A stretch of 64,000 nt of DNA, from NCBI GenBank assembly GCA_017442805.1, contig JAFRZA010000020.1:1-64000 (forward strand), read 5' to 3'. The translations under genes and the position numbers were made by a program. The notes below the pieces were generated by a model. That model was not told the DNA's origin and made no database searches. It was given only the letters and a program-made list of their open reading frames with translations. This stretch comes from Erysipelotrichaceae bacterium (GTDB taxonomy: Bacteria > Bacillota_I > Bacilli_A > Erysipelotrichales > Erysipelotrichaceae). Of this stretch, positions 12,003 through 60,929 are shown piece by piece. How positions within the stretch are numbered: position 1 is the first letter of the stretch; every line of letters starts with the position of its first letter.

Positions 12003-12007
12003 TAATT

Positions 12008-12604: not shown

Positions 12605-12649
12605 ATTTGTTTAGGGGCTTACAATTTCATTAGGAAAGAGCGAATCATA

Positions 12650-13642: not shown

Positions 13643-13706
13643 AAGGCTGTATGTGATATATTGATAGTATAAACAACAATTACAATCTAATGACCAGGTG
13701 AACGAA

Positions 13707-14096: not shown

Positions 14097-14151
14097 TGGC
14101 AATTAGAAGGAAAACTGATAAGTAGAATACACTGATTAAAGGAGATTGTCT

Positions 14152-17268: not shown

Positions 17269-17277
17269 GAGGATATT

Positions 17278-18951: not shown

Positions 18952-19382
18952 GAACAATTTCCCTTCGCTATACTGATAAGTTTGCACCGCAGAATGGCAC
19001 GATTCAGGCACATCAAAGTATATTGGATGAAAAAGGATATGTTTGGTATGGGAAAATGGGAAATCCCATTTCTGCGAAGGTCGCTGAAATGATATTACAG
19101 AATGATGATCCGCGTTTTCTTTTGATTCATAGCGGATATGCAGAAAGATATTGGATGCATATTGATGCCATTTCTCGTGAAAAGCCTGCTGATGACGAGT
19201 TTCCAGCATATTATCGTGAAATCGCTAATAACTTTAAGACCTGGTTTCGGGTCGTAAAGATAGAAATTGCTGAAAGAGATGTTGTTGGAAAATGTAGAGT
19301 GGTATCTTCAGGAGCACCGTTATCTGAAGCGTCAAGACACAGTATAAGTCCGTATTTCATTATAGATTGCATTGTGAGTTAG
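18948..19382 (+). CDS. Small PUA/EVE-like protein between hsdM and hsdS
   Basis: 144 residues, no membrane segment. It starts within the hsdM stop (ATGA overlap), so it is translationally coupled, and hsdS follows after 16 bases. The pattern Y-V-W-Y-G-K-M-G...F-L-L-I-H-S-G-Y-A-E-R-Y-W-M-H-I-D-A-I...P-A-Y-Y...W-F-R-V-V-K-I...S-P-Y-F-I-I is reminiscent of PUA/EVE-type beta-barrels, which read modified bases. That assignment is my inference from pattern and needs a structure prediction. The lodged position inside an hsd operon suggests a role in site recognition, in tuning the enzyme, or as an antirestriction or modified-phage-DNA sensor. Confidence 0.75.
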   Translation: MRTISLRYTDKFAPQNGTIQAHQSILDEKGYVWYGKMGNPISAKVAEMILQNDDPRFLLIHSGYAERYWMHIDAISREKPADDEFPAYYREIANNFKTWFRVVKIEIAERDVVGKCRVVSSGAPLSEASRHSISPYFIIDCIVS

Positions 19383-19398
19383 AAAGGAGGAAGAAAAA

Positions 19399-20535: not shown

Positions 20536-21332
20536 TGATTTTTTTTGATGATGAAGAGAGAATACTCGAACTCGTTCGAAGCGAAGGCCTCTTCAAAGTT
20601 TGTTTTGTGAATTTTTCCTTTGGTTTGTTAAGGCACTATTTCTCCATACGTTTTAACGCTTTATATAAGAGTTGGACCAATAACACAGAATCGCGGCCAG
20701 ACTATATCAATAATATTCGCAAGGAAATGATTGAGATAATGCGCTTCGATGATTATGTGAGTAACGGATTTAGTCAAAACCAGGTCGAATCAAGAAAAAT
20801 AAAAGCAATGCTTAATAGGTATATCGAACAGAATGGCCAGATTCCCGATAAAGATAAGGTCATCTTCTTCCCGGATGTTACGCTCGATAATCGGTCGAAG
20901 AGTGACTTAACAATGTATTACGATAACTTCGAAAGAGTTGTCCGGAATCATTCGGCGAAGGTTGTGGATTACCGCAAGAATTACCCAGGCTACAAAGTTT
21001 CGTTTTTGCTGTTTGATGAATCACCGTCTTATTACGAAACGAAGGAAAGACTTCAGCATTCCCCTAAACCTGGAGACCTGACAGGACGGTGTAGAAGATA
21101 TTTGCCAATGTATGATAAAAGGTTTGTTGATGTCGTGAAATCAATTGATGCTGATTACGTAATATGGGCTACACCATATCATGATTACAATGTGCTATCA
21201 CCTTTAGTCACGAAAACAGTGTTTCTAATAGATGTCCCCAAATTGAGAAAGAAGCAAAGAACAGTTGATTATGACTACAGTAAAGTATACTGCTCAGAAG
21301 TAAGCCTTGAAGAAAGCGGCAATAGAAGATAA
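20535..21332 (+). CDS. Protein of unknown function coupled to hsdS
   Basis: 265 residues, soluble, basic. It starts on the last base of the hsdS stop (TAATG), so it belongs to the hsd transcription unit. Visible features are a helical N-terminal half and a beta-rich middle with F-F-P-D-V-T-L-D and V-S-F-L-L-F-D-E-S-P-S-Y-Y. The acidic residues in adjacent strands could suit a nuclease-like or Rossmannoid core, but I do not recognise the family and name no function. It lies 117 bases before the SNF2 gene in the same orientation, and both share the A+T-rich composition of the island. Confidence 0.78.
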   Translation: MIFFDDEERILELVRSEGLFKVCFVNFSFGLLRHYFSIRFNALYKSWTNNTESRPDYINNIRKEMIEIMRFDDYVSNGFSQNQVESRKIKAMLNRYIEQNGQIPDKDKVIFFPDVTLDNRSKSDLTMYYDNFERVVRNHSAKVVDYRKNYPGYKVSFLLFDESPSYYETKERLQHSPKPGDLTGRCRRYLPMYDKRFVDVVKSIDADYVIWATPYHDYNVLSPLVTKTVFLIDVPKLRKKQRTVDYDYSKVYCSEVSLEESGNRR

Positions 21333-21448
21333 AGTAATGCTGTGCTAGTGTAAATCTTTTGGGATTTCATAATGACGAATAAAATCTACATATTAAAATC
21401 GGGAGAGTGAACGTCACAAAGATTTAGAACGGAGAGGAGGACATTTCG

Positions 21449-40534: not shown

Positions 40535-41191
40535 ATGAAGAGAGTAATCGCAGTAGTTGATGATGAGAAGGACCTGAACGAACTGATCAGCCGTTATCTG
40601 CAGAATGAAGGCTACGAGGTCCGCAGTTTCTATACCTTTGAAAGCACCATGGATCATGTCCAGGACAGCGACATCGACCTGTGGCTTTTGGACATCATGC
40701 TGGATGAGGGCAGTGGCTACGACCTGCTGGAATCTATCAAGAAGTACCACAGCGACAAGCCGATCGTTTTCATCAGCGCCCGCGACCAGGAGTTTGACCG
40801 CGTGCTGGGCCTGGAAAAGGGCGGCGATGACTACATCACCAAGCCCTTCAACATGAAGGAAGTTGTTTTGCGAATCAACAACATCATCAAGCGCTTCTAC
40901 CGCGAGGAAAACAAGATTGAGATCGACGGTTACGTCATTGATGAGCAGCAGCGCAAGGTCTCTGACGGCGTCAATAACATCGATCTGACCACCAAGGAAT
41001 TCGACCTGCTGATGATGTTCGTCCACAAGAAGGGCGTGGCCCTTTCCCGTGATGACATTCTGCGCACGGTCTGGGACGAAGACTTCTTCGGTTCCGACCG
41101 CGTCGTTGACGATACCAAGCGCCGTCTGTGCAAGAAGATGCCCAATCTGAGCATCAACACCCTCTACGGCTACGGGTACAGGTTAGGTTAA
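40535..41191 (+). CDS. OmpR-family response regulator
   Basis: 218 residues. Receiver domain with acidic D9/D10, phospho-acceptor D53 (LWLLDIML), S81 and K103 (ITKPF), then an OmpR/PhoB winged helix (LTTKEFDLLMMFVHKKGVALSRDDILRTVW ... R-V-V-D-D-T-K-R-R-L). Its stop directly abuts the sensor kinase start. The signal is unknown; no target gene is adjacent. Confidence 0.93.
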   Translation: MKRVIAVVDDEKDLNELISRYLQNEGYEVRSFYTFESTMDHVQDSDIDLWLLDIMLDEGSGYDLLESIKKYHSDKPIVFISARDQEFDRVLGLEKGGDDYITKPFNMKEVVLRINNIIKRFYREENKIEIDGYVIDEQQRKVSDGVNNIDLTTKEFDLLMMFVHKKGVALSRDDILRTVWDEDFFGSDRVVDDTKRRLCKKMPNLSINTLYGYGYRLG

Positions 41192-42568
41192 ATGCGCAAG
41201 ATCCTGAGATCATTAGCGAACATGTCGCTGCTTCAGCAGCTGTCGGCAATCATCATCGTGTTTGTCGGCATTTTCATCGGCTTCTTTACCATTTACCTGA
41301 GAGGCAACATCGATGACTTCGTGACCAATCAGTGCATGAACATCATTCAGCGTTCCCAGCAGACCGTCATCGACAACGTCGTTTCCGGCAAGCAGGGCTA
41401 CTCGGAACTGACCTACGATTCCGACGTCATGCACTTCGTCTTCCAGCGCGACAAGCTGAAGACCTACTACGGCAGCGCGACCTATTCGGAGGAATTTCTG
41501 AAGGACATCACCAGGATGGTGGCCGCTCATGGCAGCGGCTGGATCGAATCCAACGTCGATCTGGAAGGCAAGATGTACTACTACCGCCTATACACCATCG
41601 ATTCCGCTACCAAGGTCATATCCCTGATGGATGAGAACTACGGCAAGTCGATCGCCTCGACGCTGCTTTCATCGGTGTCAAACAATACCGCCCTGATCTT
41701 CTCGCTGATGTTCTTTCTGCTGATGATCTGGGTCGGCACGATCATCACGCCGCTGCATCAGATCCAGTCCTATGTGGAAAAGGTCAGAAAGGGCGATGAA
41801 CAGGCCGTGATGACGGTGGAAAGAGGCGACGAGATCGGCGAGATGGCCCGGGCTCTGGTCGACATGAAGGAAGAGATCGAAGATCAGGAAAAGACCAAGG
41901 AGGAAATGATCCACAACATTTCCCATGATCTGAAAACCCCGATCGCGATCATCAAGTCCTATGCCGAGTCCATCCGCGACGGCATTTACCCCTACGATAC
42001 ATTGGAGGGCAGCGTTGATGTCATCATTGAAAACGCCGACCGGCTTTCCAAGAAAGTCCAGTCCCTGCTGTTCCTCAACCGCCTGGACTACGTGATGGAT
42101 CAGGAAAGGGACACCGACAAGACCACTGACATGATCACTCTGGTCAACAACGTCTGCCAGTCCTTCAAGATGATCAGACCGGAAGTCAAGGTCGAAAAGT
42201 ACCTGCAGAAGGGCGTTACCTTTAAGGGCGATGAGGAAAGCTGGCGCATCGTGCTTTCCAACTTGCTGGACAATGCCCTGCGCTACGCGGAAAGCGAGGT
42301 CGTCATCGACGTCCACGATGACATGCTGACGGTCTTCAATGACGGCCAGCCGATCTCCGAAGAGCAGCAGAAACGCCTTTTCAAGCCCTTTGAAAGAGGT
42401 GACAAGGGCAAGTTCGGTCTGGGCTTATCCATCTGTTACAAGGTCTGCAACACCTACGGTTACAAGATTGAGGAAGAGAACATGCCCAACGGCGTCATCT
42501 TCATCATCAGCGCCAAGGAACCGGCCGAAGTGAAGAAGGACCGCAAGAGCGCCAAGGGCAAAAAGTAG
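41192..42568 (+). CDS. Membrane sensor histidine kinase
   Basis: 458 residues. TM1 (about 14-36), extracellular sensor (about 37-165), TM2 (about 167-190), HAMP, H-box N-I-S-H-D-L-K-T-P with H245, N-box L-S-N-L-L-D-N-A-L-R-Y, and G-box F-G-L-G-L-S-I-C. Start immediately follows the response-regulator stop. The sensor domain has no recognisable fold to me. The tail is rich in Lys. Confidence 0.93.
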   Translation: MRKILRSLANMSLLQQLSAIIIVFVGIFIGFFTIYLRGNIDDFVTNQCMNIIQRSQQTVIDNVVSGKQGYSELTYDSDVMHFVFQRDKLKTYYGSATYSEEFLKDITRMVAAHGSGWIESNVDLEGKMYYYRLYTIDSATKVISLMDENYGKSIASTLLSSVSNNTALIFSLMFFLLMIWVGTIITPLHQIQSYVEKVRKGDEQAVMTVERGDEIGEMARALVDMKEEIEDQEKTKEEMIHNISHDLKTPIAIIKSYAESIRDGIYPYDTLEGSVDVIIENADRLSKKVQSLLFLNRLDYVMDQERDTDKTTDMITLVNNVCQSFKMIRPEVKVEKYLQKGVTFKGDEESWRIVLSNLLDNALRYAESEVVIDVHDDMLTVFNDGQPISEEQQKRLFKPFERGDKGKFGLGLSICYKVCNTYGYKIEEENMPNGVIFIISAKEPAEVKKDRKSAKGKK

Positions 42569-42643: not shown

Positions 42644-43369
42644 ATGAGTACACCACATAACAGCGCCGAAAGAGGCGATATCGCCAAGCTGGTCTTAATG
42701 CCGGGCGATCCTTTAAGAGCCAAGGTCGTTGCCGAGACCTATCTGGAGAATCCGGTTCAGATCAACAGTGTCAGAGGCATGCTGGGCTATACCGGCACCT
42801 ACAAGGGCCACAAGGTCACCGTCATGGGTTCGGGCATGGGCATGCCGTCAATCGGCATCTATTCCTATGAACTGTTCAATTTCTACGATGTCGAAGCCAT
42901 CATCCGCATCGGCTCCACCGGCGCCATGCTGCCGGAGATCAACCTGTATGATGTCATTCTGGCCTCAGCTGCCTATTCCGAATCATCATATGCCTATCAG
43001 CAGGGCGGCGTCAGCGACAAAGTCATCAAGCCTTCCGAAGAATTAAACGAAATTCTCCGCAAGAACGCTGCCAGGCTCGGTTATCCGTTAGTTGAAGGCG
43101 TCGTCAATTCATCCGATGTCTTCTACTACGACGAATCAGTAGCCGCCGAGCGCATCACCACAGCCGTTGAGCAGTATCATGCCTGCTGCGCGGAAATGGA
43201 GTCATTCGCTCTGTTCCACAACGCCAACATGGCCGGCAAGAAAGCTGCCTGCCTGCTGACCGTTTCCGACAGCATCGTCAACCATCAGGAAACCACGGCG
43301 GAAGAGAGACAGAACTCCTTCACCAGAATGATGGAAATCGCTCTGGAGGCTGCTGAAGCATATGACTAG
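42644..43369 (+). CDS. deoD: Purine-nucleoside phosphorylase (DeoD type)
   Basis: 241 residues, hexameric PNP that splits purine (deoxy)nucleosides with phosphate. Motifs: MPGDPLRAK (phosphate binding), G-S-G-M-G-M-P-S-I-G-I-Y-S-Y, R-I-G-S-T-G-A-M, E-M-E-S-F-A-L (ribose) and T-V-S-D-S. CAGGAGG lies ahead of the ATG. The gene overlaps gdhA by 8 bases. Confidence 0.95.
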   Translation: MSTPHNSAERGDIAKLVLMPGDPLRAKVVAETYLENPVQINSVRGMLGYTGTYKGHKVTVMGSGMGMPSIGIYSYELFNFYDVEAIIRIGSTGAMLPEINLYDVILASAAYSESSYAYQQGGVSDKVIKPSEELNEILRKNAARLGYPLVEGVVNSSDVFYYDESVAAERITTAVEQYHACCAEMESFALFHNANMAGKKAACLLTVSDSIVNHQETTAEERQNSFTRMMEIALEAAEAYD

Positions 43370-45470: not shown

Positions 45471-45824
45471 ATGGCATACATTAAGGAATACAGCAGTGGA
45501 AGAAGAATAATCGAAATTGACAGTTCCTATATCAAGGACTACAGCTCGGGGAGAAGAAACTTTGAAGTGGATGGACCGTATCTGAAAGATTACAGCTCCG
45601 GCAGACGCATGTATGAAATAGACGGTAATTACATCAGGGATTACAGCTCCGGAAGAAGACTTGTGGAGGTGGACGGAAACTACATCAGAGACTATAGTTC
45701 GGGCAGAAGACAGCTTGAAATCGATGGAAACTACATCAAAGAGTATTCAAGCGGACGAAGACTGTATGAAATTGACGGCTTTCTGCCCAGACGTGTCCTG
45801 CTTGCCCTGATCATGATCCTGTGA
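45471..45824 (+). CDS. Six-fold 17-residue repeat protein (beta-flower-like)
   Basis: 117 residues built from six tandem 17-residue units with consensus Y-I-K-D-Y-S-S-G-R-R-x-x-E-I-D-G-N, then a short tail F-L-P-R-R-V-L-L-A-L-I-M-I-L. Each unit looks like two short beta-strands with a turn at S-S-G. This resembles the small '4-fold beta-flower' proteins, but with six rather than four repeats. The hydrophobic tail could be a membrane segment or hydrophobic plug. AAGGAG precedes the ATG. Repeat DNA units have diverged, so the array is not recent. Function unknown. Confidence 0.75.
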   Translation: MAYIKEYSSGRRIIEIDSSYIKDYSSGRRNFEVDGPYLKDYSSGRRMYEIDGNYIRDYSSGRRLVEVDGNYIRDYSSGRRQLEIDGNYIKEYSSGRRLYEIDGFLPRRVLLALIMIL

Positions 45825-49721: not shown

Positions 49722-51089
49722 ATGAAGAAGTCATCAAGCGGAGATCAGATCATCCTGACGGTAATGAACATCCTGATAATTCTGGGCGTTCTGGCTTTTT
49801 TCGCTGTCCGTCTGATGGATTCCAAGGCTTCGTTTGAAGAACTCAACGACCGTGACATTCACAATGATCCGCTGGCTGAGGTCCTGATTTCCGACATCGA
49901 CCTGCTGAAGCGGGACCGGCTGTTTGACAACGGCGACGGTTCCTACAGCTTCAAGGGCTACGTCGATCATAACTATGTTTCCTATAACGGCATCATCTAC
50001 CGCATCGTGGAGATCAGCAAGGACAGGGAGATCGTCCTGATTTCCAATGAGCCCATAACCCTCTCGCCGCTATCCCAGCGGGTCAGCCTGGATAAGACAC
50101 CGCTGTACATCTGGCTTAACGCCGGCTCTGACGAACACAGCGGCATCTTTGAAGGCACCCTCAACGGCAAAAAGGAATACCTGACTGCCTGCGCCAACGA
50201 TTTCAGCGAACTGACCAACATCAAGAATGCCGTGCGCACCGTTACCGGCGTCTCCGGCTATGTCAGCCTGCTTTCCGTCTTCCAGTATCAGAACTGCGGA
50301 GGCAGCAAGAGTTTTCTGAACAACGGCACGTACTTCTGGCTCAGCAATACCGACAACAACGGCTTCAGCTATTACGTTGATCCTGCCGGCGACGTCAAGC
50401 CGGCCAAGGACGCGGACCTGATGCTGGCGGTCCGTCCGGTCATCACGCTGAAAGCCGGGCTGATGGTACTGGGCGGCAGCGGCACGCTGAGCGACCCCTA
50501 CGTCATCAATGAAAACGACCCGTACCAGGCCAAGGACATCTGGGTCGGCAGCTTCGTCAACTACAGCGGCATCCTCTGGAGAGTGACGGACAAGGATGAG
50601 GAAGGCAATCTGATCCTCACCAGTCTGGACATAGCCCAGAGGGAAGAAGGTCCGGTCACGATCAGACAGTCGCACAACAACGTCTACAACACTCAGACCG
50701 GAGCCGGCTATTATTTCAATCACACCTATGTAAAGAACCTCTACCGCTATTCCGACTATCTGACCAGAAGAGACTGGCCGCTGGGTGGCTCGGTGGATGG
50801 CGAATACTTTGATTACCGCGACAATTATCAGCGCTCGCTGCGCTGCTTCATCTACATACCGACGACGGCAGACATGTTCCTAAGCGACCTGGATCCCTGC
50901 CGGCTGATGACCTATGACCCCTACGCTCACGCGCTGGCCTACAGCATCGTCGATTACCGGCTGAAGAGTCTGGATGTCACCAAGGAAGGCAATTACCGGA
51001 TCTGCGTCTGCATGCTCGGATCGCTGATGGTGTCTGACGGAACGGGCAGCCGGGAAGAACCCTATGTTCTGGAGGTGGACGAATGGTAG
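49722..51089 (+). CDS. Single-pass membrane protein with two DUF6273-like ectodomain repeats (paralogue A)
   Basis: 455 residues. One transmembrane helix (about 8-30) is followed by two similar halves of about 200 residues. Each has Y-R-I-V-x-I or W-R-V-T-x-K cores, a W-L-N / F-L-N segment, and ends with G-x-G-T-x-x-x-P-Y-V (GGSGTLSDPYVI and DGTGSREEPYVL). This looks like the DUF6273-type extracellular fold; the assignment is from pattern. It is a paralogue of the gene at 58154. The downstream proline-rich gene starts inside its last codons, so the two are translationally coupled. Confidence 0.75.
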   Translation: MKKSSSGDQIILTVMNILIILGVLAFFAVRLMDSKASFEELNDRDIHNDPLAEVLISDIDLLKRDRLFDNGDGSYSFKGYVDHNYVSYNGIIYRIVEISKDREIVLISNEPITLSPLSQRVSLDKTPLYIWLNAGSDEHSGIFEGTLNGKKEYLTACANDFSELTNIKNAVRTVTGVSGYVSLLSVFQYQNCGGSKSFLNNGTYFWLSNTDNNGFSYYVDPAGDVKPAKDADLMLAVRPVITLKAGLMVLGGSGTLSDPYVINENDPYQAKDIWVGSFVNYSGILWRVTDKDEEGNLILTSLDIAQREEGPVTIRQSHNNVYNTQTGAGYYFNHTYVKNLYRYSDYLTRRDWPLGGSVDGEYFDYRDNYQRSLRCFIYIPTTADMFLSDLDPCRLMTYDPYAHALAYSIVDYRLKSLDVTKEGNYRICVCMLGSLMVSDGTGSREEPYVLEVDEW

Positions 51090-52348
51090 CGAACAATGAT
51101 AGGATCATCGATCAGTTCGGCCAGGTCCGCAGCCTGACGGAAAACAGCGAGCCGGTAAAGATCGGCTCACCGACCATCCGCAAGCAGGTCAATCAGACTG
51201 AGCAGGCGCTCAGGGAGATCGGCATTTTTCCTGTGGAGGAAAAGCCGGCCGTTCAGCAGGCGGCTCCCCAGCCGGCCGCCCAGGCAGTTCAGCCGGAGGG
51301 CTCGCGAACAGCCGCCCAGGCGCTGACCGCTCTCTCCAAGCAGGCTTCGCTGGCTCAGCAGCTGACAAGTAAACCCCAGGCGCCGGCAGTCGAGAAGAAA
51401 CCGGCCGTTCAGCAGCAGAGCAGCCAGCCCCGGAAACCGGCTGACGAAAGCGCAGAGCCGAAGCAGCAGAAAGCCGAAGAGACTCCTGGCTACCAGATCG
51501 TAAAAGTGCCCGTTTATGATGAAAAGGGTCAGCTGATCAGCTACCAGCAGGTTAGAAGACCGATCGAAGAAGAAAAAGAGAAGACGGAGACCTATCAGCT
51601 GGTCCGAGTGCCGGTCTATGATACTGACGGTAACGTCGTCGGCTATCAGATGGTCAATCGTCCCGTAAGTGCAAAAAAGGAAAAGCCAACGGTAACCGGC
51701 GATACCAGATACCGCAATCCCGGCACCATCGCAGCCAAAAAAGAAACCGGGCAGAGGGCCCAACCCAAGCCAACTGCCGAAGCCAGGACGCAGGAAGCCA
51801 AGCCGGCTGAAAAGCCGCAGAGCGAAAAGAAACCGCCGCTCGCCGCTCAGCCTGCCCCGGCGGTAAAGCCGAAGCCGCAAGCCACTGTTAAGCCACCGGT
51901 TCAGCCTGCAGCTGAACAGTCAGCTGAAAAGCCGGCCGCATCCCCGCAGCCTGCCAAAACGGTCAGTGAGCCGGCCCCGAAAACCGGTCAGCCTGCCCAT
52001 ACTCCGGTTTCCGTTTCAGCTCAACCGGCTGAAATGAAACCGCCGGTAAAGCCGGCCCAGCCGGCTCTCAGGCCCGTACCTGCCGTTAACAAGATGCCGG
52101 CAGCGGCCAAGCCGAAGGCAGCGGAAGACAGCCAGGACAAACTGAAGTGGTATTTCAAGCTGGTACTGGTCCTTGATGTTCTCTGCATTCTGCTGGTGGC
52201 GGCTCTGTATCTGCCGTTCAGCCCGCTGAGAAAGAACCTGATCATCAGTTCGCTTTCCCAGAAGGAAAAATACTACATCGCCTATGGCCTGTATACAGAC
52301 AGGATGATTCAGGAAACCGTCAATGACTACCTGAACATTGATGAATGA
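51083..52348 (+). CDS. Pro/Ala-rich single-pass protein, partner of paralogue A, lacking the glycosidase domain
   Basis: 421 residues. Intracellular part (1-350) is rich in Pro, Ala, Lys and Gln, with two copies of a 28-residue unit (Y-Q-I/L-V-K/R-V-P-V-Y-D-x-x-G...R-P). One transmembrane helix (about 356-378) and about 45 extracellular residues follow (KYYIAYGLYTDRMIQETVNDYLNIDE). The TM and following segment match the gene at 59553, but where that protein continues into a phosphodiester glycosidase domain, this one stops. GGAGG precedes the ATG, which overlaps the previous stop. Confidence 0.75.
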   Translation: MVANNDRIIDQFGQVRSLTENSEPVKIGSPTIRKQVNQTEQALREIGIFPVEEKPAVQQAAPQPAAQAVQPEGSRTAAQALTALSKQASLAQQLTSKPQAPAVEKKPAVQQQSSQPRKPADESAEPKQQKAEETPGYQIVKVPVYDEKGQLISYQQVRRPIEEEKEKTETYQLVRVPVYDTDGNVVGYQMVNRPVSAKKEKPTVTGDTRYRNPGTIAAKKETGQRAQPKPTAEARTQEAKPAEKPQSEKKPPLAAQPAPAVKPKPQATVKPPVQPAAEQSAEKPAASPQPAKTVSEPAPKTGQPAHTPVSVSAQPAEMKPPVKPAQPALRPVPAVNKMPAAAKPKAAEDSQDKLKWYFKLVLVLDVLCILLVAALYLPFSPLRKNLIISSLSQKEKYYIAYGLYTDRMIQETVNDYLNIDE

Positions 52349-52362
52349 GGAGGAAGGAACAC

Positions 52363-53091
52363 ATGGATAAGATCGAACAGCTTCAGAAGATCTTCGATGA
52401 AAGCAACAGAATCGTTTTCTTTACCGGTGCCGGCGTTTCCACGGAAAGCGGCATCCCCGATTTCCGCAGTGTCGACGGGCTCTACAACCAGAAATACAGA
52501 TATCCTCCGGAGAGAATCATCTCCCATTCCTTCTTCCGTGACAACGTGGAGGAATTCTACCGCTTCTACAAGGACAGAATGGTCTACCCGCTGGCCCGCC
52601 CCAACGCCGCTCATAAGAAGATGGCGGAGTTTGAAGCCGCCGGCAAGTGCATCGGCGTGGTGACCCAGAACATCGACGGCCTGCATACCGTGGCCGGCAG
52701 CAAGAACGTCTATGAGGTGCACGGAACCATCAACAAGAACTACTGCACCAAGTGCCACCGCTTCTACAGCCTTGATGAGATCATGGCCAAGGACGGGGTA
52801 CCGTACTGCGACGACTGTGGTGCCGTCATCAAGCCCGATGTCGTTCTCTATGAAGAGGGACTGGATGATCTGACCGTCAGCGGAGCCATCCGCGCCATTT
52901 CCCAGGCTGACTGCCTGGTGATCACCGGAACCTCGCTGGTCGTCTATCCGGCCGCCGGATTCGTCAATTACTTCAACGGCAAGTACCTGGTGGTGATCAA
53001 CCTGTCGTCGACCAGCTCCGACTCCTCGGCGGACCTGGTTGTCCACGGCAAGGTCGGCGAAGTGCTGAGTCAGATAAAGGTCAATGCATAA
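52363..53091 (+). CDS. cobB: Sirtuin NAD-dependent deacylase
   Basis: 242 residues. NAD pocket TGAGVSTESGIPDFR (21-35), T-Q-N-I-D-G-L-H, catalytic H120 (V-Y-E-V-H-G-T) and zinc ligands C128, C131, C149 and C152. Removes acetyl or acyl groups from lysines. The start at 52363 has GGAGG/AAGG upstream; a possible start at 52345 overlaps the preceding stop. Probably co-transcribed with the surface cassette by proximity only. Confidence 0.93.
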   Translation: MDKIEQLQKIFDESNRIVFFTGAGVSTESGIPDFRSVDGLYNQKYRYPPERIISHSFFRDNVEEFYRFYKDRMVYPLARPNAAHKKMAEFEAAGKCIGVVTQNIDGLHTVAGSKNVYEVHGTINKNYCTKCHRFYSLDEIMAKDGVPYCDDCGAVIKPDVVLYEEGLDDLTVSGAIRAISQADCLVITGTSLVVYPAAGFVNYFNGKYLVVINLSSTSSDSSADLVVHGKVGEVLSQIKVNA

Positions 53092-53097
53092 AAAAAC

Positions 53098-53116
53098 AAA
53101 GGCCATACGGCCTTTT
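53098..53116. terminator. Terminator after the sirtuin
   Basis: AAAGGCC, ATAC loop, GGCCTTTT; with A-run before it, so it may work in both directions between convergent genes. Confidence 0.8.
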
Positions 53117-53130
53117 CTTTAGAATAGTTA

Positions 53131-53886
53131 TCAGTTTTTACATTCGCCTTCATCGCCGCATGAGCATTCTTCGTCGTCTCCGCAGCAACAGCAGCATTCC
53201 TTTTTTTCCTTCTTACAGGGTCTGACTTCTTCCTCTTCGTCGTAATAGTCTTCGCCCAATACCAGGCCGCTGGCCTGATCCATGTCTTCTTCCAGCTGCT
53301 GATAGACGCCGTAGAGTTCGGGAATTTCGTAGCCGTCCTGGTCATCGGGATCATAAGCGAACTGGAAGGGATGAACGCCGTAATTCTTGATCAGCTCCCT
53401 GGCGACGTTGATGTTCTTGATCACCGGTGTCAGCATCAGCAGGTCACAGTCGAGAATGAAGTCGTAGCTGTCCCTGCTGAGAAACCAGACGACATGCTTG
53501 GTCACTTCGGTATTGTAGGGAATGTATTTCTCAATGTCGATCTCCCCGTCTTCCCCGTAACAGAACACCGGCAGTTCGATCTGGGAGATCTCCTCATTCC
53601 AGATCGCCAGATTTTCTTCGTCTTCCTCTTCATCCGGGTCGAATTCGTAGTGAATGGTCAGCTGCAGCCCGTTGAGCAGGGCGTTGGCGTTTTCCACCCG
53701 CATGAAGTCCGGCAGGATCTCCTTCTTGCAGTCGATGTGCCGGAAGTTCCTGATGAACTGGTAGGAGTTGGAATCGTAGTTATAGACAATTGCCCCGTAT
53801 TTCTTTATTTCCCTGTTGAATTCATCGATGAATTCACATTGCGGATCGGTCAGATCCACGATCTTATTGAGATATAAATCACGCAT
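53131..53886 (-). CDS. Acidic protein with Cys-rich C-terminal tail
   Basis: 251 residues. The body (1-215) is acidic and soluble without a family I recognise. The last 30 residues contain a dense cysteine cluster (E-C-C-C-C-C-G and E-C-S-C-G-D-E-G-E-C, plus one earlier P-C-K), nine cysteines in all, flanked by Asp/Glu. Such tails bind metals such as zinc, copper or iron. CAGGTGAT precedes the start. No metal-transport gene lies adjacent. Confidence 0.72.
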   Translation of the reverse strand: MRDLYLNKIVDLTDPQCEFIDEFNREIKKYGAIVYNYDSNSYQFIRNFRHIDCKKEILPDFMRVENANALLNGLQLTIHYEFDPDEEEDEENLAIWNEEISQIELPVFCYGEDGEIDIEKYIPYNTEVTKHVVWFLSRDSYDFILDCDLLMLTPVIKNINVARELIKNYGVHPFQFAYDPDDQDGYEIPELYGVYQQLEEDMDQASGLVLGEDYYDEEEEVRPCKKEKKECCCCCGDDEECSCGDEGECKN

Positions 53887-54045
53887 GTTTTATCACCTGA
53901 CTTATTTTAGCACAACGGTTTACGGCGGGTGAACAATAATACACCCCTGCAATTGTCCTGAATGGGAAGCAAAACGGCCGAAAACCGGAAAATCTTCTGA
54001 TAAACGGGCAAAATGCGGATTATGATGTTATAATTATCTAGGAAT

Positions 54046-54122
54046 GTCCCCGTAGCTCAGCTGGATAGAGCGTTCGCCTCCTAAGCGAAAGGTCTCCGGT
54101 TCGAATCCGGACGGGGACGCCA
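54046..54122 (+). tRNA. tRNA-Arg (anticodon CCT)
   Basis: Full cloverleaf: acceptor GTCCCCG/CGGGGAC, D-arm GCTC...GAGC, anticodon stem TTCGC/GCGAA with loop CTCCTAA (anticodon CCT, reading AGG), T-arm TCCGG/CCGGA with TTCGAAT, discriminator G and encoded CCA. A TATAAT-like box lies upstream at about 54030 and a T-run (TTTTTT) follows at 54123. Confidence 0.97.
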
Positions 54123-54144
54123 TTTTTTAATGAGGACATGAATA

Positions 54145-55476
54145 ATGAATGAATGTTATGTTGAGACCCGCTTCGGCAGAATAAAGGGCCGGGAGAATGA
54201 ATACGGAAGAGAATTCCACAGCGTTCCCTATGCCGTGACCGAAAGGTTTGAAAAGCCGCGTGAGGTGCCTTTCTGGGGTGAATTCGACGCCACCCAAAGG
54301 CAGGTCAACTGCCATCAGCGCTTTGAATACTATGACGAGAAGGCGGAAGACGGCTTCTACTTCCGGGAATTTGACTACATGCGCTTTTCCGACTGGGCCG
54401 AATCGCCGATGACCCTGTCAATCCTGACGCCCAAGGAGCCGGACAACTGTCCGGTCATGGTCTACTTCCACGGCGGCGCCTTCGAGAACGGCTGCATTGA
54501 CGATGAGCCCTTCGGCACTTCCCATGAGTTTACCAACCGGGGAATCATTCAGGTGTCGGTCGGCTACCGTCTCAATGTCTTCGGTCTCTACGGTTCGGAA
54601 AACTTCGGCCTTCAGGACATGGTCTACGCCATTCACTGGATCAGAGACAACATCAGCGCCTTCGGCGGCGACGGCAGCCACATCGTGCTGATGGGACAGT
54701 CAGCCGGAGCGATGGCCGTAGCTGATCTTCTGCTTGATAAGGAAGATCTTGACGGCGTCATCAGAGGAGCCATCATGATGTCCGGTGCCGGCCTGGTACC
54801 CAAGTTCGCCGGCCCGGCTCCCAGAGAGCAGAACGCGCCATTCTGGAACGAAGTAAGGGAAAAGTGCGGATGTAAGACCGATGAGGAACTTAAGAAGGTC
54901 GACGCCCGCAAACTCTGGCAGGCCTGGTATGACTGCAAGCAGGCATCCAGGAGCGTGCAGGTCGGCGTTCCCGCCATCGACGGCCGGATCATCAGGGACT
55001 ATCCCCATGAGATCGCCAAGCGCGACGAGGACGTCAACGTCCCCCTGCTGATCGGCGTTACCTCTCAGGACATGTTCCCCTTCATGATCTTCGAACTGGC
55101 CTTCGGCCTGGCCCTGAACCGGGCCAAGCGCAAGCTCAATCCGGTCTACGGCTATTACTTCGACGTCGTTCCGCCGGGAAACAGCTACAAGGCCTTCCAT
55201 GCCTGCGACCTGTGGTACATGTTCGGCGGCATGGAGAAGAGCTGGCGGCCCTTCGGCGAGGAAGACCGCGCCATCAGCAGGATGATGATCGACTACACTG
55301 CCAACTTCATCAAGACCGGCAATCCCAATGGCGAAGGACTCAAGCGCTGGCCGTCCTTCACCCTGCTGCACCACCGTTTCCGGCTGTTCTCCCGCCGGAA
55401 TACCACGCTGATCACGCCGGCCTTTGCCCGGGGTAAGCTGCTGCGCAGTTTCCTGTTTGACCGCGGCCCGTTCTGA
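54145..55476 (+). CDS. Type-B carboxylesterase
   Basis: 443 residues, alpha/beta-hydrolase. Oxyanion-hole motif Y-F-H-G-G-A-F, nucleophile S186 in G-Q-S-A-G-A, helix A-I-H-W-I-R-D-N-I-S-A-F-G-G-D. The catalytic acid and a histidine (A-F-H-A-C-D-L near 350) are later in the chain. No signal peptide, so cytoplasmic; about 60-100 residues shorter than typical type-B esterases. GAGG precedes the ATG. Confidence 0.88.
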   Translation: MNECYVETRFGRIKGRENEYGREFHSVPYAVTERFEKPREVPFWGEFDATQRQVNCHQRFEYYDEKAEDGFYFREFDYMRFSDWAESPMTLSILTPKEPDNCPVMVYFHGGAFENGCIDDEPFGTSHEFTNRGIIQVSVGYRLNVFGLYGSENFGLQDMVYAIHWIRDNISAFGGDGSHIVLMGQSAGAMAVADLLLDKEDLDGVIRGAIMMSGAGLVPKFAGPAPREQNAPFWNEVREKCGCKTDEELKKVDARKLWQAWYDCKQASRSVQVGVPAIDGRIIRDYPHEIAKRDEDVNVPLLIGVTSQDMFPFMIFELAFGLALNRAKRKLNPVYGYYFDVVPPGNSYKAFHACDLWYMFGGMEKSWRPFGEEDRAISRMMIDYTANFIKTGNPNGEGLKRWPSFTLLHHRFRLFSRRNTTLITPAFARGKLLRSFLFDRGPF

Positions 55477-55493
55477 TCAGAAAAAAGAATCTG

Positions 55494-55522
55494 AGGCGTT
55501 TCCCTTGCGAAGCGCCTTTTTT
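55494..55522 (+). terminator. Terminator after the carboxylesterase
   Basis: AGGCG pairs with CGCCT around a 14-base loop, followed by TTTTTT; A-run before it. Confidence 0.75.
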
Positions 55523-55541
55523 CATGCGGAAAATAACAAAA

Positions 55542-55600
55542 AAGGTACCTTAATATATTGACAAGATACCGAAGATATGTAGAATATAGGTAGGTACCTT
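55542..55600 (+). promoter_or_regulatory. marR promoter flanked by two palindromic operators
   Basis: TTGACA (55558-55563) and TAGAAT (55580-55585), 16-base spacer. A 10-base palindrome AAGGTACCTT sits at 55542-55551 just before the -35, and a second AGGTACCT lies at 55592-55599 around the start of transcription. Two copies flanking the promoter suggest autorepression by the downstream MarR protein. Confidence 0.75.
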
Positions 55601-55628
55601 ATGAAAAGGACGGGAAAGGAATAGATAT

Positions 55629-56297
55629 ATGAACAGAAAAAACGAATTATTACATGAAAACTTCAGAAAAACGGCCGCCCTGCTGCGCCGGAACCGGGTC
55701 CGCGAGTTCGGTAATTACCCGGACACTCAGAACCGCGTGCTGTCACTGCTGGCATTCAAGGACGGCATCAGCCAGCGTCAGCTGGCCTACCTGCTGGGCA
55801 TCAAGCCCCAGTCAGCCGGTGAACTGCTGGGCAAGCTGGAAGCCGGTGGCATGATCAGACGTCAGGCCGATGAGACTGACGGTCGGGTCAACCTGGTCTT
55901 TCTGACTGATGAAGGCCGTAAGAGCGCTGAACAGCTGGCTGCCGGCATCGAAAAGGAAGACATCTTCGACTGCCTCAGCGATGAGGAAAAAAAGCAGCTG
56001 GAAGAGCTGCTGGGCAAGATCGTGGAAACCCACCCGCTCAGCGAGGAGGAACTGAACAGACCCCGCCACGGCCGCAATGCCGATAAGTGGAAGATGTTCA
56101 AGAATGACTTCAGGTTCTGGTTCGAACGTGACCTTAAGGGTGAAATGGATGAAGCAGGCCCGGAAGGCTGCCCGAGACCCTTTGAGGGCGAACCGGAAGG
56201 CGGTGAGGTCAGACCGATGCCGTTCTACCGCGACAAATCAGTCTGGACGAAAGATCTCCGAGACTTACCCGGCGAAGAGGAAGCCGAGGAGATCTGA
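55629..56297 (+). CDS. MarR-family regulator with extended C-terminus
   Basis: 222 residues. Winged-helix MarR domain (about 20-135): VLSLLAFKDGISQRQLAYLLGIKPQSAGELLGKLEAGGMIRRQADETDGRVNLVFLTDEG. The last 80 residues are an added acidic, proline-rich tail not usual in MarR. GGAAAGGAAT precedes the start. Neighbouring genes are candidates for regulation; the palindromes upstream favour autorepression. Confidence 0.88.
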   Translation: MNRKNELLHENFRKTAALLRRNRVREFGNYPDTQNRVLSLLAFKDGISQRQLAYLLGIKPQSAGELLGKLEAGGMIRRQADETDGRVNLVFLTDEGRKSAEQLAAGIEKEDIFDCLSDEEKKQLEELLGKIVETHPLSEEELNRPRHGRNADKWKMFKNDFRFWFERDLKGEMDEAGPEGCPRPFEGEPEGGEVRPMPFYRDKSVWTKDLRDLPGEEEAEEI

Positions 56298-56355
56298 GAA
56301 GTCTTGTCGTAAAAAAGCCGCTGACCTATAATTGAATCATCAGGAGAAAAGAAAG

Positions 56356-56955
56356 ATGAATAATGAATTAAACGAAAAACTTGAAGCCGTCAGAAAAACG
56401 GCTGAAGAGAAGGCTGAAGAGATCAGCGAAGTGGTTGAAGAAGTCAAACTGGAAGCGGCTGAGAAGTTTGAGGAAGCCGGCAGCCTCAGCGAAGAGGTCA
56501 AGGAGAAACTGGACAAGACACTGGCCGCGCTTGACGAGACGCTGAAACAGGATAAGGTTGAAAATCCGGAAAGCGGAATTCAGCTGACCCTCAAGCCGTC
56601 CGACGCCGTTCTGGCTGCCCGCCGGGAAGTGAAGGAAAAATACGGCGAAAAGGACGACAAGACCGTCGAACTCAAGGAAAAGGTCACCGACAAGTACGAA
56701 AAGGCCAAGAAGGACGTCAGCGAGACCTTCGGCGATCTGAAGGAGACCGCGATGAACGTCGGCGGAAAGATCGGCGAAAAGAGCCGCGAAGCTGCCGAGA
56801 AGTTCAAGGACACCGGAGCCGGAAAGGCCCTGCTGGGCGATGACGGCAAGTTCGACATGGACGACGTCGGCCGCATCGGTTCCGACATTCTGGAAGCCGG
56901 CGAGAAGGCCGTAGAAAAGGTCGCATCATTCCTCAAGGACTTAACTGACAAGTAG
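56356..56955 (+). CDS. Highly charged coiled-coil / YtxH- or LEA-like stress protein
   Basis: 199 residues, almost entirely Glu/Lys/Ala-rich helix with heptad-like repeats (EKLEAVRKTAEEKAEEISEVVEEV, EKYEKAKKDVSETFGDLKET). A small Gly-rich section (GKALLGDDGKFDMDDVGRIG) lies near the end. Resembles YtxH/LEA-type stress proteins; no signal peptide. CAGGAGAAAAG before ATG. It is 58 bases after the MarR gene and may share its transcript. Confidence 0.72.
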   Translation: MNNELNEKLEAVRKTAEEKAEEISEVVEEVKLEAAEKFEEAGSLSEEVKEKLDKTLAALDETLKQDKVENPESGIQLTLKPSDAVLAARREVKEKYGEKDDKTVELKEKVTDKYEKAKKDVSETFGDLKETAMNVGGKIGEKSREAAEKFKDTGAGKALLGDDGKFDMDDVGRIGSDILEAGEKAVEKVASFLKDLTDK

Positions 56956-56966
56956 ACGAAAGAAAA

Positions 56967-56993
56967 CTGCCCGCGATCACGGGCAGCTTTTTT
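56967..56993. terminator. Terminator, shared by convergent genes
   Basis: CTGCCCG pairs with CGGGCAG, CGATCA loop, CTTTTTT after it. The minus-strand azlD stop lies at its right edge. Confidence 0.85.
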
Positions 56994-57292
56994 CACAGGA
57001 TGATACTTACGGTCAGTACGGCCAGAGCGGAGATTATCGCCACGGTGGTCAGCGGCTTTTCCAGAAATGACAGCACCAGCGCGACGGCGGTACCGCACAG
57101 GGCGGCTGCCGGCTTTTCGCAGCAGTACAGGATGGCCGGAAAGCTCATGGCGGCGAGCACGGCGTAAGGCAGATAGTAGAGCAGCGAGCGGATGAAGCGG
57201 TTGGTGATCTTCTTTCTGACCAGGGTAAGCGACAGGGCTCTGATGGCGTAGGTTACCAGAGCCATGGTCATAATGGACAACGTTATTCTCAT
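56993..57292 (-). CDS. azlD: AzlD-family branched-chain amino acid exporter subunit
   Basis: 99 residues with three to four hydrophobic segments (YLPYAVLAAMSFPAIL, family hallmark). ATGA overlap with azlC. AzlC and AzlD together export branched-chain amino acids and their analogues. Confidence 0.88.
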   Translation of the reverse strand: MRITLSIMTMALVTYAIRALSLTLVRKKITNRFIRSLLYYLPYAVLAAMSFPAILYCCEKPAAALCGTAVALVLSFLEKPLTTVAIISALAVLTVSIIL

Positions 57293-57984
57293 GACTCTTC
57301 CTCCTTTACCGGGGCGATGAGGCTGACCAGGCCGGCGGAGATCAGCGAACTGATGATCACGGCCAGCGAAGAGGAGAGTGAACTGACATGGTAGTAGAAC
57401 AGGCAGTTGACGGCAATGGCCAGGATGACAGCCAGCAGGACCGCCTTTTCATGGCGGGCCGGCGGCAGGAAGATGGCGATGAACATGGCGTAAAGCAGAA
57501 TGCCCATGGCGTCGGTTATCACCGACGGCAGAACGCTTCCCGCCAGACAGCCCAGCAGGGTGCCGGTCGTCCAGCCGGCTACGACGATGAAGGTGATGCC
57601 GTACATCAGCGCCGGCGTCACCGGCTTCTTCTGGCTGCAGGCCAGGGCGAAGATCTCATCGGTGATGCCGTGGCAGGCGATCAGCCGCTGCTTAAGCCGG
57701 AAATCATCATCCAGCTTCTGCGACAGGGCGATGCCCATCAACAGATAGCGCAGGTTGATGACCAGCTGGGAGAAGGCGATCTCCAGCAGGCTGCCTGAGG
57801 CGGCGATGATGCTGATGCCGGCGACCTGGCCGGCAGAAGTCAGATTGAGAAAGGATACGGCGACGGCTTCAAAGCCGCTCAGACCGCTGGCCAGGGCAAA
57901 GATGCCGAAGCCGAAGGACACGAAAAGATATCCCAGTCCGATGGGAAGTCCCTGTCTGATACCGTCTCTGAAATCAGCGCTCAT
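57289..57984 (-). CDS. azlC: AzlC-family branched-chain amino acid exporter subunit
   Basis: 231 residues, about seven to eight hydrophobic segments. Family signature GIRQGLPIGLGYLFVSFGFG near the N-terminus and LNLTSAGQVAG. AAGGTGG precedes the start; azlD overlaps the end by 4 bases. Confidence 0.9.
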   Translation of the reverse strand: MSADFRDGIRQGLPIGLGYLFVSFGFGIFALASGLSGFEAVAVSFLNLTSAGQVAGISIIAASGSLLEIAFSQLVINLRYLLMGIALSQKLDDDFRLKQRLIACHGITDEIFALACSQKKPVTPALMYGITFIVVAGWTTGTLLGCLAGSVLPSVITDAMGILLYAMFIAIFLPPARHEKAVLLAVILAIAVNCLFYYHVSSLSSSLAVIISSLISAGLVSLIAPVKEEES

Positions 57985-58153
57985 GAGTCCACCTTCTTTT
58001 CCTGATATTCTAGCACAGATCAGCCTTTTTTTCCGTGGTGATAACGCGGTTTTTGCTTTGATGGTAAGGAAAAGGGCAGGTTTGCGTAAATGAATTATCT
58101 ATAGTACAATAAACAATGGTCATTTCTGACCGTGAAGGGACTGACTGATAGAA

Positions 58154-59551
58154 ATGAAGAAAAGGATATCAAAGAAAGAGTTGATTTTCCAGATCGTCAA
58201 TACGGTCCTCGTCATCGGCATACTTGGCTTCTACCTGGCGAGACTGTTCTATTATAAGAAATACTTTGATGATATCTACTTCAATTCCCGCGATACCGCC
58301 GGGAAGCTTTTCAGTGACGTCATCATCGCCAGCCACGACGTCTCCCTGACCAATAACGGCCTGATCAAGAACGAGGAAGATCAGACCTATACCTTCAAGG
58401 GCGACTGCAACAACAACTACGTCATCTATTCCAACCGCCTGTACCGCATCATCGACGTGGACGCCGAAGGCAATGTCCGCATCGTCTCTCAGGACCCGGT
58501 GACCGTCAGCACCATGTACGACGCCGTGCCCTTCAGCCGGGGCTCGCTGTGCCAGTGGCTGAACAAGGGTGACCAGGAGCACAGCGGCGTCTTCTACGAC
58601 ACCCTGAATACCCCGGTCAATTTCCTGATCGATACTCCGGTTTACGAAAACAATGTGGACGACCCCGCCAAGCCGGCCTACAGCCAGGCGGTCAGCGACA
58701 TCGTCATCCGCATTCTCTCCCTGCAGGACTACAGCGCCGTCGGAGGAGCTAACAGCTACCTCAACTGCGGCAGCAGCTACTGGCTGAGCAACATGGACAG
58801 CAGCGGCAAGCACTGGTTTGTCGACGCTGAAGGCAACGTCGCCCTCTCCGGCAGCAAGGTCGAAATGAAGGGCGTCAAGGTTGTTCTGACCATTACCCGC
58901 ACCGTCATCGCCGCCGGCGGTACCGGCAAGGCTGATGACCCCTATGTTCTTTCCCGGAACCAGCCGTCCACGGTCCGCGGACTGGAAGCCGGCAGCGTCA
59001 TCAGCTACAGCGGCTACAACTGGAAGGTCTGCTCCATCACCAACGGCAACGCCGTTCTGCTGATGGACGGCGTGATCAGGGAAGAAGGCCAGCCCGTTGC
59101 CCTGTCATACGGCACCAAGGCGGAATTCAACCCCACGGCCAAGGGCTCGCTGGCCAGCTATCTCAACAACAACTTCCTGGCCTCTCTCAACAGCTACCTG
59201 AACTACCTGGTGGAAACCGAGTGGAGTTTCGGCATGCATGAGGACGTCCAGTCCAGTTATTCCCAGGCGGAAAACTACGTCAAGACCTGCAAGTGCTACG
59301 TCTCCCTGCCCAATAACAGCTATCTGTTTTTGGGAGAGCAGAAGGATTATTTTCTCAATACCATGTCGGCTTCGACCGACAAGCTGATCTACACGGTCAG
59401 CTCCGATCTGACGCTTTACGCCGATCTGCTGGAAAATACCCATTACATCAGACCGGTCATCTGCATGAACGGCTCCGTGAAGCTGCTTTCCGGCAGCGGC
59501 ACGGCTGAAGATCCCTATGTCGTGGAAACCCCGTCAACGGAGGTGAATTAA
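58154..59551 (+). CDS. Single-pass membrane protein with two DUF6273-like ectodomain repeats (paralogue B)
   Basis: 465 residues, same layout as the gene at 49722: TM about 10-30, then two halves, ending G-G-T-G-K-A-D-D-P-Y-V-L (about 255) and G-S-G-T-A-E-D-P-Y-V-V (C-terminus). Shared cores include Y-V-I-Y-S-N-R-L-Y-R-I-I-D, W-L-N-K-G and N-C-G-S-S-Y-W-L-S-N. A TACAAT -10 lies at about 58105. The downstream glycosidase gene starts one base after its stop. Confidence 0.75.
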   Translation: MKKRISKKELIFQIVNTVLVIGILGFYLARLFYYKKYFDDIYFNSRDTAGKLFSDVIIASHDVSLTNNGLIKNEEDQTYTFKGDCNNNYVIYSNRLYRIIDVDAEGNVRIVSQDPVTVSTMYDAVPFSRGSLCQWLNKGDQEHSGVFYDTLNTPVNFLIDTPVYENNVDDPAKPAYSQAVSDIVIRILSLQDYSAVGGANSYLNCGSSYWLSNMDSSGKHWFVDAEGNVALSGSKVEMKGVKVVLTITRTVIAAGGTGKADDPYVLSRNQPSTVRGLEAGSVISYSGYNWKVCSITNGNAVLLMDGVIREEGQPVALSYGTKAEFNPTAKGSLASYLNNNFLASLNSYLNYLVETEWSFGMHEDVQSSYSQAENYVKTCKCYVSLPNNSYLFLGEQKDYFLNTMSASTDKLIYTVSSDLTLYADLLENTHYIRPVICMNGSVKLLSGSGTAEDPYVVETPSTEVN

Positions 59552-59552
59552 G

Positions 59553-60929
59553 ATGAAGATAAGACCTGAACTTATTCACCGCCTGCTTGCCGAGATCCAG
59601 CAGAGCGACCCGGTATACGCCGAAAGTTTCCGTCAGGCTTATGAAGAGGCCCGCAAGGCCGCCGGAAAGCCGGCAGCCCCGAGCGCTCAGCCGCAGGCAA
59701 CACCGGCTCAGCCCCAGCCTGCCAAACCTCAGGCTGCTCAGCCCCAGCCGGCCCAGCCTCAGCCGCCGGTAAGCGAAACGCCGCAGCCGGCCGCTGTTAC
59801 CACAAAGCCGGTCCAGCCGGAAGTCAGGCCTGAACAGCCCGTCAGACCGGCTGAAGCGGAAACGGTAAGCGAACCGGAAGTCAAGCCGGAAACAAAGAGC
59901 GGAAAGAAGAAGGAAAAGCAGAAACTCAGACTGTTCACCAAGCTGCTGATCGTCGTTGACCTCTGCGCCGTACTGTGCTTTGTGACTGCCTACGGTCCGA
60001 TCAGCGCCTTCCGTGACTGGCTGGTACTGACCGCACTGAATACCGCGACCCACAAGCACTTCGCCTATGTGCTTTATTCCGACGCCATGGTCAAGAAGGT
60101 CCAGTCGCAGAACACCATCAGTGAATTCGATGACGAGACGGACACTTCCGCCATCCACTTCGTGGATTACGGCGACAAGGAAACCTATGATTCCATCTAT
60201 GAGGAACAGATCCTCAAGAGAGATGATCCCAATCAGGTATACAAGATCGTGACCCTTGATGAAGACCGCTACACCGGTTTCATCACCGTCATCTATGACC
60301 CGACCAGACTGAACCTGGCGATGGCGGAAACCAGCCGCGGTGAGAAGATCACCCATTTCGCCAAGCGCCTCAACGCGCCGATCGCCGCCAACTGCGGTCC
60401 GGCGGAGTGGAACTCCGGCTATACGGCCATGCACCCCTACAACTCCATCATCTGCGAAGGCAAGGTGGTCAACGAGGGCGGCACGGAACAGGATTACCGT
60501 TATTCCAAGCTGATCGGCATGACTTACGACGGCATTTTGAAACTGAAAATGGAAACGGCGGCGGAAGGCGTGGCGGACGGCTACAAGTGGGCAGTCTGCT
60601 TCGGCCCCTATCTGATCGTCAACGGCAAGCCGGCCGAATTCAAGGGCAACGGCGGCTACGGCATCAACCCGCGTCAGGCCATCGGTCAGCGGCAGGACGG
60701 CATCGTTCTGATCGTTACCATCGACGGCCGCGGCGGCGGCGGTTCTGCCGGCATCAGCATGCCTGACCTCACCGAGATCTTCGTCCGCTACGGCTGTTAC
60801 AACGCAGCCAACCTGGACGGCGGCGGTTCGACCATGCTGGTGGAAAACGGCATTCTGGTCAACAACCCGGTCAGCTACAACCATACCGGAGAGCGTAAGG
60901 TGTACAACTGCATGTACATCACTCCGTAA
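59553..60929 (+). CDS. Membrane-anchored phosphodiester glycosidase (NAGPA-like) with Pro/Ala-rich N-terminus
   Basis: 458 residues. A cytoplasmic Pro/Ala/Gln-rich region (about 30-120), one transmembrane helix (about 128-150) and an extracellular NAGPA/DUF2233-like domain (about 245-458) with I-A-A-N-C-G, F-G-P-Y-L-I-V-N-G, P-R-Q-A-I-G, D-G-R-G-G-G and N-L-D-G-G-G-S-T-M-L. NAGPA enzymes cleave GlcNAc-phosphodiesters; bacterial members are tied to exopolysaccharide or cell-surface glycan processing. GGAGGTGA precedes the ATG. The partner gene at 51083 lacks this domain. Confidence 0.85.
   Translation: MKIRPELIHRLLAEIQQSDPVYAESFRQAYEEARKAAGKPAAPSAQPQATPAQPQPAKPQAAQPQPAQPQPPVSETPQPAAVTTKPVQPEVRPEQPVRPAEAETVSEPEVKPETKSGKKKEKQKLRLFTKLLIVVDLCAVLCFVTAYGPISAFRDWLVLTALNTATHKHFAYVLYSDAMVKKVQSQNTISEFDDETDTSAIHFVDYGDKETYDSIYEEQILKRDDPNQVYKIVTLDEDRYTGFITVIYDPTRLNLAMAETSRGEKITHFAKRLNAPIAANCGPAEWNSGYTAMHPYNSIICEGKVVNEGGTEQDYRYSKLIGMTYDGILKLKMETAAEGVADGYKWAVCFGPYLIVNGKPAEFKGNGGYGINPRQAIGQRQDGIVLIVTIDGRGGGGSAGISMPDLTEIFVRYGCYNAANLDGGGSTMLVENGILVNNPVSYNHTGERKVYNCMYITP

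Follow-up and report, generated by a model that had tools for sequence, protein, structure and literature searches.

We analysed a 64,000-nucleotide stretch from a rumen Erysipelotrichaceae bacterium (assembly GCA_017442805.1, contig JAFRZA010000020.1, positions 1 to 64,000; the window hereafter) that contains two copies of a two-gene cassette. The first gene encodes a protein with two DUF6273-like repeats behind a membrane helix (protein A) and the second a Pro/Ala-rich single-pass protein (protein B), which carries an NAGPA phosphodiester glycosidase domain in one cassette and ends soon after its helix in the other. A third cassette lies elsewhere in the genome, outside the window. Judged from the sequences of the three, A and the B anchor can stay when the outer domain of B is lost or another takes its place. 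The parts of the two cassettes in the window are as follows.

49722..51089, + strand: cassette 1 A, 455 amino acids (aa), N-terminal helix and two DUF6273-like repeats
51083..52348, + strand: cassette 1 B, 421 aa, Pro/Ala/Gln-rich N-terminal tail, helix and 43-residue juxtamembrane end, without enzyme domain
52160..52216, + strand: membrane helix of cassette 1 B (residues 360-378), the start of the anchor segment common to B proteins
58154..59551, + strand: cassette 2 A, 465 aa
59553..60929, + strand: cassette 2 B, 458 aa, Pro/Ala-rich N-terminal tail, helix (residues 127-145) and NAGPA ectodomain
60411..60920, + strand: NAGPA phosphodiester glycosidase domain (PF09992) of cassette 2 B

All four open reading frames (ORFs; 49722/51083 and 58154/59553) were found in the window's ORF list at the places given in the preliminary description, each on the + strand. 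The tight coupling that it proposed is also evident: the A and B genes of cassette 1 overlap by 7 nucleotides (nt), those of cassette 2 are separated by 1 nt, and the cassette 1 B gene in turn overlaps a Sir2 gene by 4 nt. The two cassettes had been called duplicates, and their homology is real, with the A proteins aligning end to end at 30% identity over 460 positions (E = 1e-70); at an identity of only ~30%, the duplication is an old one.

A single strongly hydrophobic segment is present in each A protein, close to the N-terminus. The two repeats postulated for A are clearly related to each other (hhalign probability 99.6%, E = 2e-24), and in profile comparisons both align with DUF6273 over most of the DUF6273 length, with hhalign probabilities of 97.7% for repeat 1 and 96.9% for repeat 2 against 0.1% for a helix-region control. 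The DUF6273 profile used here was built from members collected in related genomes, one of which (L085) was read in the wrong frame. In direct scans the Pfam cut-off for DUF6273 (PF19789) was missed, 58154 scoring 15.9 bits against a required 23.5 and 49722 giving no match; weak PF19789 matches were seen in 13 of 25 A proteins, the best at E = 1.1e-5. The label "DUF6273-like" is thus justified as a statement of clear kinship but not of membership: because the direct scans fall below the cut-off, the A proteins are distant relatives of DUF6273 and not members by the Pfam rule.

DUF6273 domains have been found to resemble C-type lectin domains by AlphaFold/DALI analysis (PMC10743442), and phage targets of diversity-generating retroelements (DGRs) carry DUF6273 too (PMC11792537). 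By this kinship, the outer part of A probably consists of two DUF6273-like domains of C-type-lectin fold. Because DUF6273 proteins are reported as C-type lectin folds, we infer that A may bind a surface glycopolymer and keep the enzyme of B nearby. Lcl_C, considered as an alternative lectin-like family, gave one weak member match without a usable set of relatives, and searches of viral contigs found no relatives of A. Two further A-type/DUF6273 proteins were seen in other architectures: in a distant relative the domain is part of a protein whose N-terminus has a type IV prepilin motif (L074:4635-6353), and at L073:5255-7081 it is accompanied by an Ig-like domain and adjoins a sortase-like gene.

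The B proteins each have one strongly hydrophobic segment. BLAST gave a significant alignment between the two over only ~117 residues (E = 9e-11), which run from the Pro-rich end through the helix into the juxtamembrane segment, and homology ends before the NAGPA domain, as an alignment around the helix had been expected to reveal. Pfam scans identified PF09992 in 59553 (E = 1.8e-34; 119.8 bits with a cut-off of 25; profile positions 8-168 of 169) and no PF09992 match in 51083, where the predicted helix occupies residues 360-378 and the protein ends at residue 421. The enzyme domain is accordingly confined to one cassette, as had been noticed, and the distance of about 45 residues given for the truncated protein is 43. 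In 59553 the NAGPA motifs are present (N280, an FGP..IVNG-type region, NLDGGGS and R448); key motif positions are invariant across 25 B proteins, PF09992 is matched by 25/25 NAGPA-B sequences scanned, and the NLDGGGS region is common to 59553 and solved NAGPA members. By these motifs 59553 is classed as an NAGPA phosphodiester glycosidase domain protein, with hydrolysis of sugar-1-phosphodiesters as its predicted activity. The statement in PMC12419801 that cites Das et al. 2013 is that NAGPA releases phosphodiester-linked sugars.

The N-terminal tails of B contain 14-19% Pro and 14-16% Ala. In cassette 2 B, positive charge lies on the N-terminal side of the helix, which fits an N-terminus inside and an enzyme outside; the charge rule is only weakly obeyed in cassette 1 and fails for cassette 3 A. 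Because of the charge and the extracellular type of the enzyme, the tail of B is probably on the cytoplasmic side. The portrayal of B as a Pro/Ala-rich single-pass protein is therefore correct in its single helix, but the Pro/Ala part is N-terminal and probably cytoplasmic, hence not a wall-spanning surface stalk. Within the tail of cassette 1 B, residues ~136-196 form two tandem YQ(I/L)V(K/R)VPVYD..G..(I/V).YQ.V.RP repeats that are not evident in the near relative. Similar short peptides (PELIHRLLAEIQ, PELSNLYDQIQ, PTELQKLIDDIQ and DEFQELIDDIQ) occur at the N-termini of 59553 and of B proteins from L019, L190 and L195; the shared peptide is possibly an intracellular docking site.

A search of the whole genome (1.8 Mb, 47 contigs) located the third A gene on contig C26. 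The B gene that follows overlaps it by 8 nt and encodes a full PGA_cap/CapA domain (PF09587; E = 1.5e-57, 195.5 bits with a cut-off of 27). CapA is counted among the calcineurin-like class, and residues D92, H96, N172, H173, H276, H308 and H310 of this protein, conserved in 29/29 aligned CapA proteins, form a putative calcineurin-like metal site. Its anchor is matched by the B-anchor profile (E = 1.4e-4) and by a profile of the two cassette 1 anchors (E = 1.3e-5). Solitary CapA proteins of the same family gave no match to the B-anchor profiles (best E ~2 or worse), and their homology to the third-cassette B starts mostly only past its anchor; no other CapA protein that we examined in the family adjoins A. 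The third-cassette B is therefore a probable chimera of a B-type anchor and a CapA ectodomain, probable and not proven because the anchors are short and hydrophobic.

The closest relative, the rumen metagenome-assembled genome Erysipelotrichaceae bacterium Tb.RUG.113 (G003), has all three cassettes in the same three states, and the five remaining genomes of the genus each encode only one A, with NAGPA-B as the next gene. A is present in 18 of 272 genomes of the family; 12 further genomes, small ones of a second family, encode a full-length A followed by NAGPA-B, and in a phylum-wide sample of 392 genomes A is confined to these two families. At the 33 A loci of the two families with a readable downstream gene (two more run off their contig), B lies within a few bases in 33/33; the partner is NAGPA-B at 29, CapA-B at 2 and a bare anchor at 2. 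The main supported clades are common to the A and B trees. B thus follows A at every locus that could be read, and the expectation that the pairs would be conserved together was borne out. The idea of an optional enzyme domain needs amendment: the domain is dispensable in cassette 1, but "optional" is too simple, since the third cassette carries CapA/PGA_cap in its stead. It is also limited in scope, as the four non-NAGPA loci all belong to this genome and G003, in each of which they are cassettes 1 and 3, and the enzyme is NAGPA in all of the 27 other A-bearing genomes with a readable partner. Two variants were noted among the NAGPA proteins: at L026:5494-9992, one A gene precedes two tandem NAGPA-B genes with long acidic N-terminal tails, and contig C5:6736-7173 of the genome from which the window comes (G000; L029:4731-6077) encodes a second, divergent NAGPA-domain protein that has no B-type anchor and does not adjoin A.

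The surroundings of cassette 1 bear on the direction of change. The relevant neighbours in the window are these.

40535-41191, + strand: response regulator, ancestral upstream context (by reading and match to the same genes in relatives)
41192-42568, + strand: histidine kinase, ancestral upstream context (same basis)
42644-43369, + strand: DeoD-like purine nucleoside phosphorylase (same basis)
52345..53091, + strand: Sir2-family gene directly after cassette 1 B (Pfam; follows NAGPA-B in five same-genus relatives)
53131..53886, - strand: ancestral downstream neighbour (MRDLYLNKIVDLTDP...), the same gene as at the single-copy locus of relatives

In the genus and its sister genus the single A-B pair follows deoD, itself preceded by a histidine kinase; in the genus, Sir2 comes next and, at most loci, an opposite-strand gene starting M..LYLN..VD.TD. 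In the window ~6 kb of other genes lie between deoD and cassette 1. Because the response regulator-histidine kinase-deoD genes upstream and Sir2 downstream are the flanks of the genus's single pair, cassette 1 stands at the ancestral locus. Its NAGPA domain is cleanly gone, and the shortened B overlaps Sir2 directly. As NAGPA-B is the state everywhere else and the enzyme-less form occupies the ancestral locus, the parsimonious direction is loss of NAGPA at cassette 1, which settles the question, raised in the preliminary description, of a domain "lost or gained". A gain of NAGPA in cassette 2 was considered and rejected, NAGPA-B being the state of all other lineages. In the A tree, cassettes 1 and 2 group with the genus and sister genus in a single clade (support 100/99) that excludes cassette 3, so the duplication giving cassettes 1 and 2 belongs to this lineage and cassette 3 is older or acquired; with its long branches, the tree does not fix the exact order.

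We propose, with slightly more confidence than doubt, that the pair is a two-component surface module in which a lectin-like A binder acts with a B anchor that holds an outer enzyme, and in which the enzyme has been kept, exchanged or lost among copies. A would be a single-pass protein whose outer DUF6273-like domains bind a glycopolymer of the cell's own envelope, and B its single-pass partner, whose conserved helix and juxtamembrane segment would place the outer enzyme beside A. The ancestral enzyme would be NAGPA, trimming sugar-1-phosphate diester linkages in the envelope polymer. After multiplication of the unit in the lineage of this genome, cassette 2 would have kept NAGPA and the third cassette would have swapped its outer domain for CapA/PGA_cap; cassette 1, at the original locus, would have lost the outer domain and may now serve only for binding or as a scaffold. 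On this view NAGPA and CapA would be two different means of acting on the envelope from one docking unit. The polymer link comes from the second family, where glycosyltransferases (GTs) lie beside the pair or an extra NAGPA-B in three genomes: a GT group 1 protein with Alg14-like and GT28-C proteins at L063 and L069, and the same arrangement, by reading, at L070.

That cassette 1 is a decaying duplicate, its enzyme deleted and the remainder without function, is in our view very improbable. The absence of an enzyme and the long stem of cassette 1 A in the tree (1.23) would fit decay. However, two species with A proteins 35% different from each other both retain the enzyme-less form, and its frames, overlap and anchor are intact. 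Between the window and G003, the ratio of nonsynonymous to synonymous substitution rates (dN/dS) is ~0.21, 0.24 and 0.24 for the A proteins of cassettes 1, 2 and 3, and among the B parts ~0.09 for NAGPA, 0.16 for CapA and 0.16 for the cassette 1 B anchor, values that are rough because cassettes 1 and 3 are almost saturated with synonymous changes. All these parts are under purifying selection, which suggests that the enzyme-less cassette 1 is functional; the intact overlapping frames and the constraint in both species argue against decay. Comparison of its flanks with those of G003 revealed no conserved alternative enzyme partner for cassette 1. The lipoprotein gene upstream (48866) was considered as a replacement partner and rejected, since it is absent at the corresponding G003 locus.

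A might instead be mainly a sensor or regulator, signalling the state of the polymer to partners inside the cell through its own helix and the cytoplasmic tail of B, with a secondary and hence losable enzyme. The pair adjoins a histidine kinase and response regulator in two genera, cassette 1 B lost only the outer enzyme and kept a tail of ~345 residues, and several B proteins share the N-terminal peptide described above (PELIHRLLAEIQ, PELSNLYDQIQ, PTELQKLIDDIQ). Yet the cytoplasmic part of A is only ~10 residues long in most genus members, and the B tail has no known signalling domain, is 32% identical between the two species and is short in most genomes, so that we think this account unlikely. 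Still less likely is that A serves for adhesion to host, plant or other cells and that its pairing with a separate enzyme reflects co-expression only. DUF6273 domains do occur in phage receptor-binding proteins, and an A-type repeat is borne by the prepilin-like protein of L074, but the tight, nearly exclusive A-B pairing over two families and the retention of the B anchor even where the enzyme is gone or replaced speak against it. A general platform, with lectin-like A and the anchor helix as a constant docking unit for swappable enzymes and the bare form tuning the active ones as a competitor or organiser without catalysis, is a tentative proposal to which we give a little more credence than to a sensor.

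Several points weigh against the two-component module that we favour. The pairing, the common anchors, which domains are present, the loss at the original locus and the selective constraint are shown by the sequences; lectin-like binding and its ligand, contact between A and B, the activity and substrate of the enzymes and the physiological role are all steps that we infer. AlphaFold models of A left the fold unconfirmed (mean predicted local distance difference test scores of 35.9 from a single sequence and 33.9 from three), and a search of solved structures with the A profile found no solved relative. The anchor match of CapA-B is short and hydrophobic, and the dN/dS values are subject to the saturation just mentioned. 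Glycan-synthesis genes are not found beside the cassettes in the window, except for an acyltransferase-3 gene at 60943. Finally, NAGPA-B occurs without A in several genomes; the enzyme is thus not dependent on A everywhere, and A depends on B more than B on A. A constant partner with a variable enzyme offers a handle on how NAGPA and CapA enzymes are recruited to their substrate, the three cassette states within one genome provide a natural three-way comparison, and DUF6273-like domains gain a testable bacterial, non-phage role.

Elsewhere in the window, positions 5909-23629 form a lower-GC stretch (~36-47%, against ~50-56% in most of the rest) that looks like an acquired defence island: it encodes an AAA_5 and LlaJI-type restriction endonuclease pair (5909, 8361), a type I restriction-modification set (HsdR 14146, HsdM 17278, HsdS 19399) and an SNF2 helicase (21449). 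A 117-aa ORF at 45471-45824 consists almost entirely of about six or seven copies of a YIKDYSSGRRxxEIDG-like repeat and has no Pfam match.

NAGPA and CapA domains are common on bacterial surfaces, and each part of the A-B pair has known relatives, whereas the pair itself is apparently undescribed; in the open-access literature we found no paper on DUF6273-like or C-type-lectin-fold proteins joined with NAGPA. The A repeats align by profile with DUF6273 (PF19789) proteins, including the DGR target proteins and tentaclins of gut phages (PMC10743442, PMC11792537). Unlike these phage proteins, A falls below the Pfam cut-off, carries its two repeats on a bacterial membrane helix and has an enzyme as its partner. 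With the NAGPA/DUF2233 phosphodiester glycosidases (PF09992; 3ohg, 6pkg, 6ozd), 59553 shares the full domain and the NLDGGGS region, but its conserved helix and juxtamembrane segment tie it to the membrane, and a dedicated A partner is encoded with it. The third-cassette B likewise has the full CapA/PGA_cap domain (PF09587) and the residues conserved across 29 members, and differs from other CapA proteins in its B-type anchor and its coupling to A. For extracellular enzymes of the calcineurin-like type that are fused to adhesion domains, teichoic acids or related phosphoesters have been suggested as substrates; NAGPA is also present in some of these proteins (PMC11488536). The surface calcineurin-like phosphoesterases ShfP and PhoD (PMC11488536) similarly combine a surface enzyme with adhesion domains, but there binder and enzyme form one chain, whereas the cassettes encode two coupled membrane proteins whose enzyme can be swapped or dropped. 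The unusual feature is the encoding of binder and enzyme as separate but coupled proteins, in which the enzyme is retained, replaced or absent and the binder and anchor remain constant.

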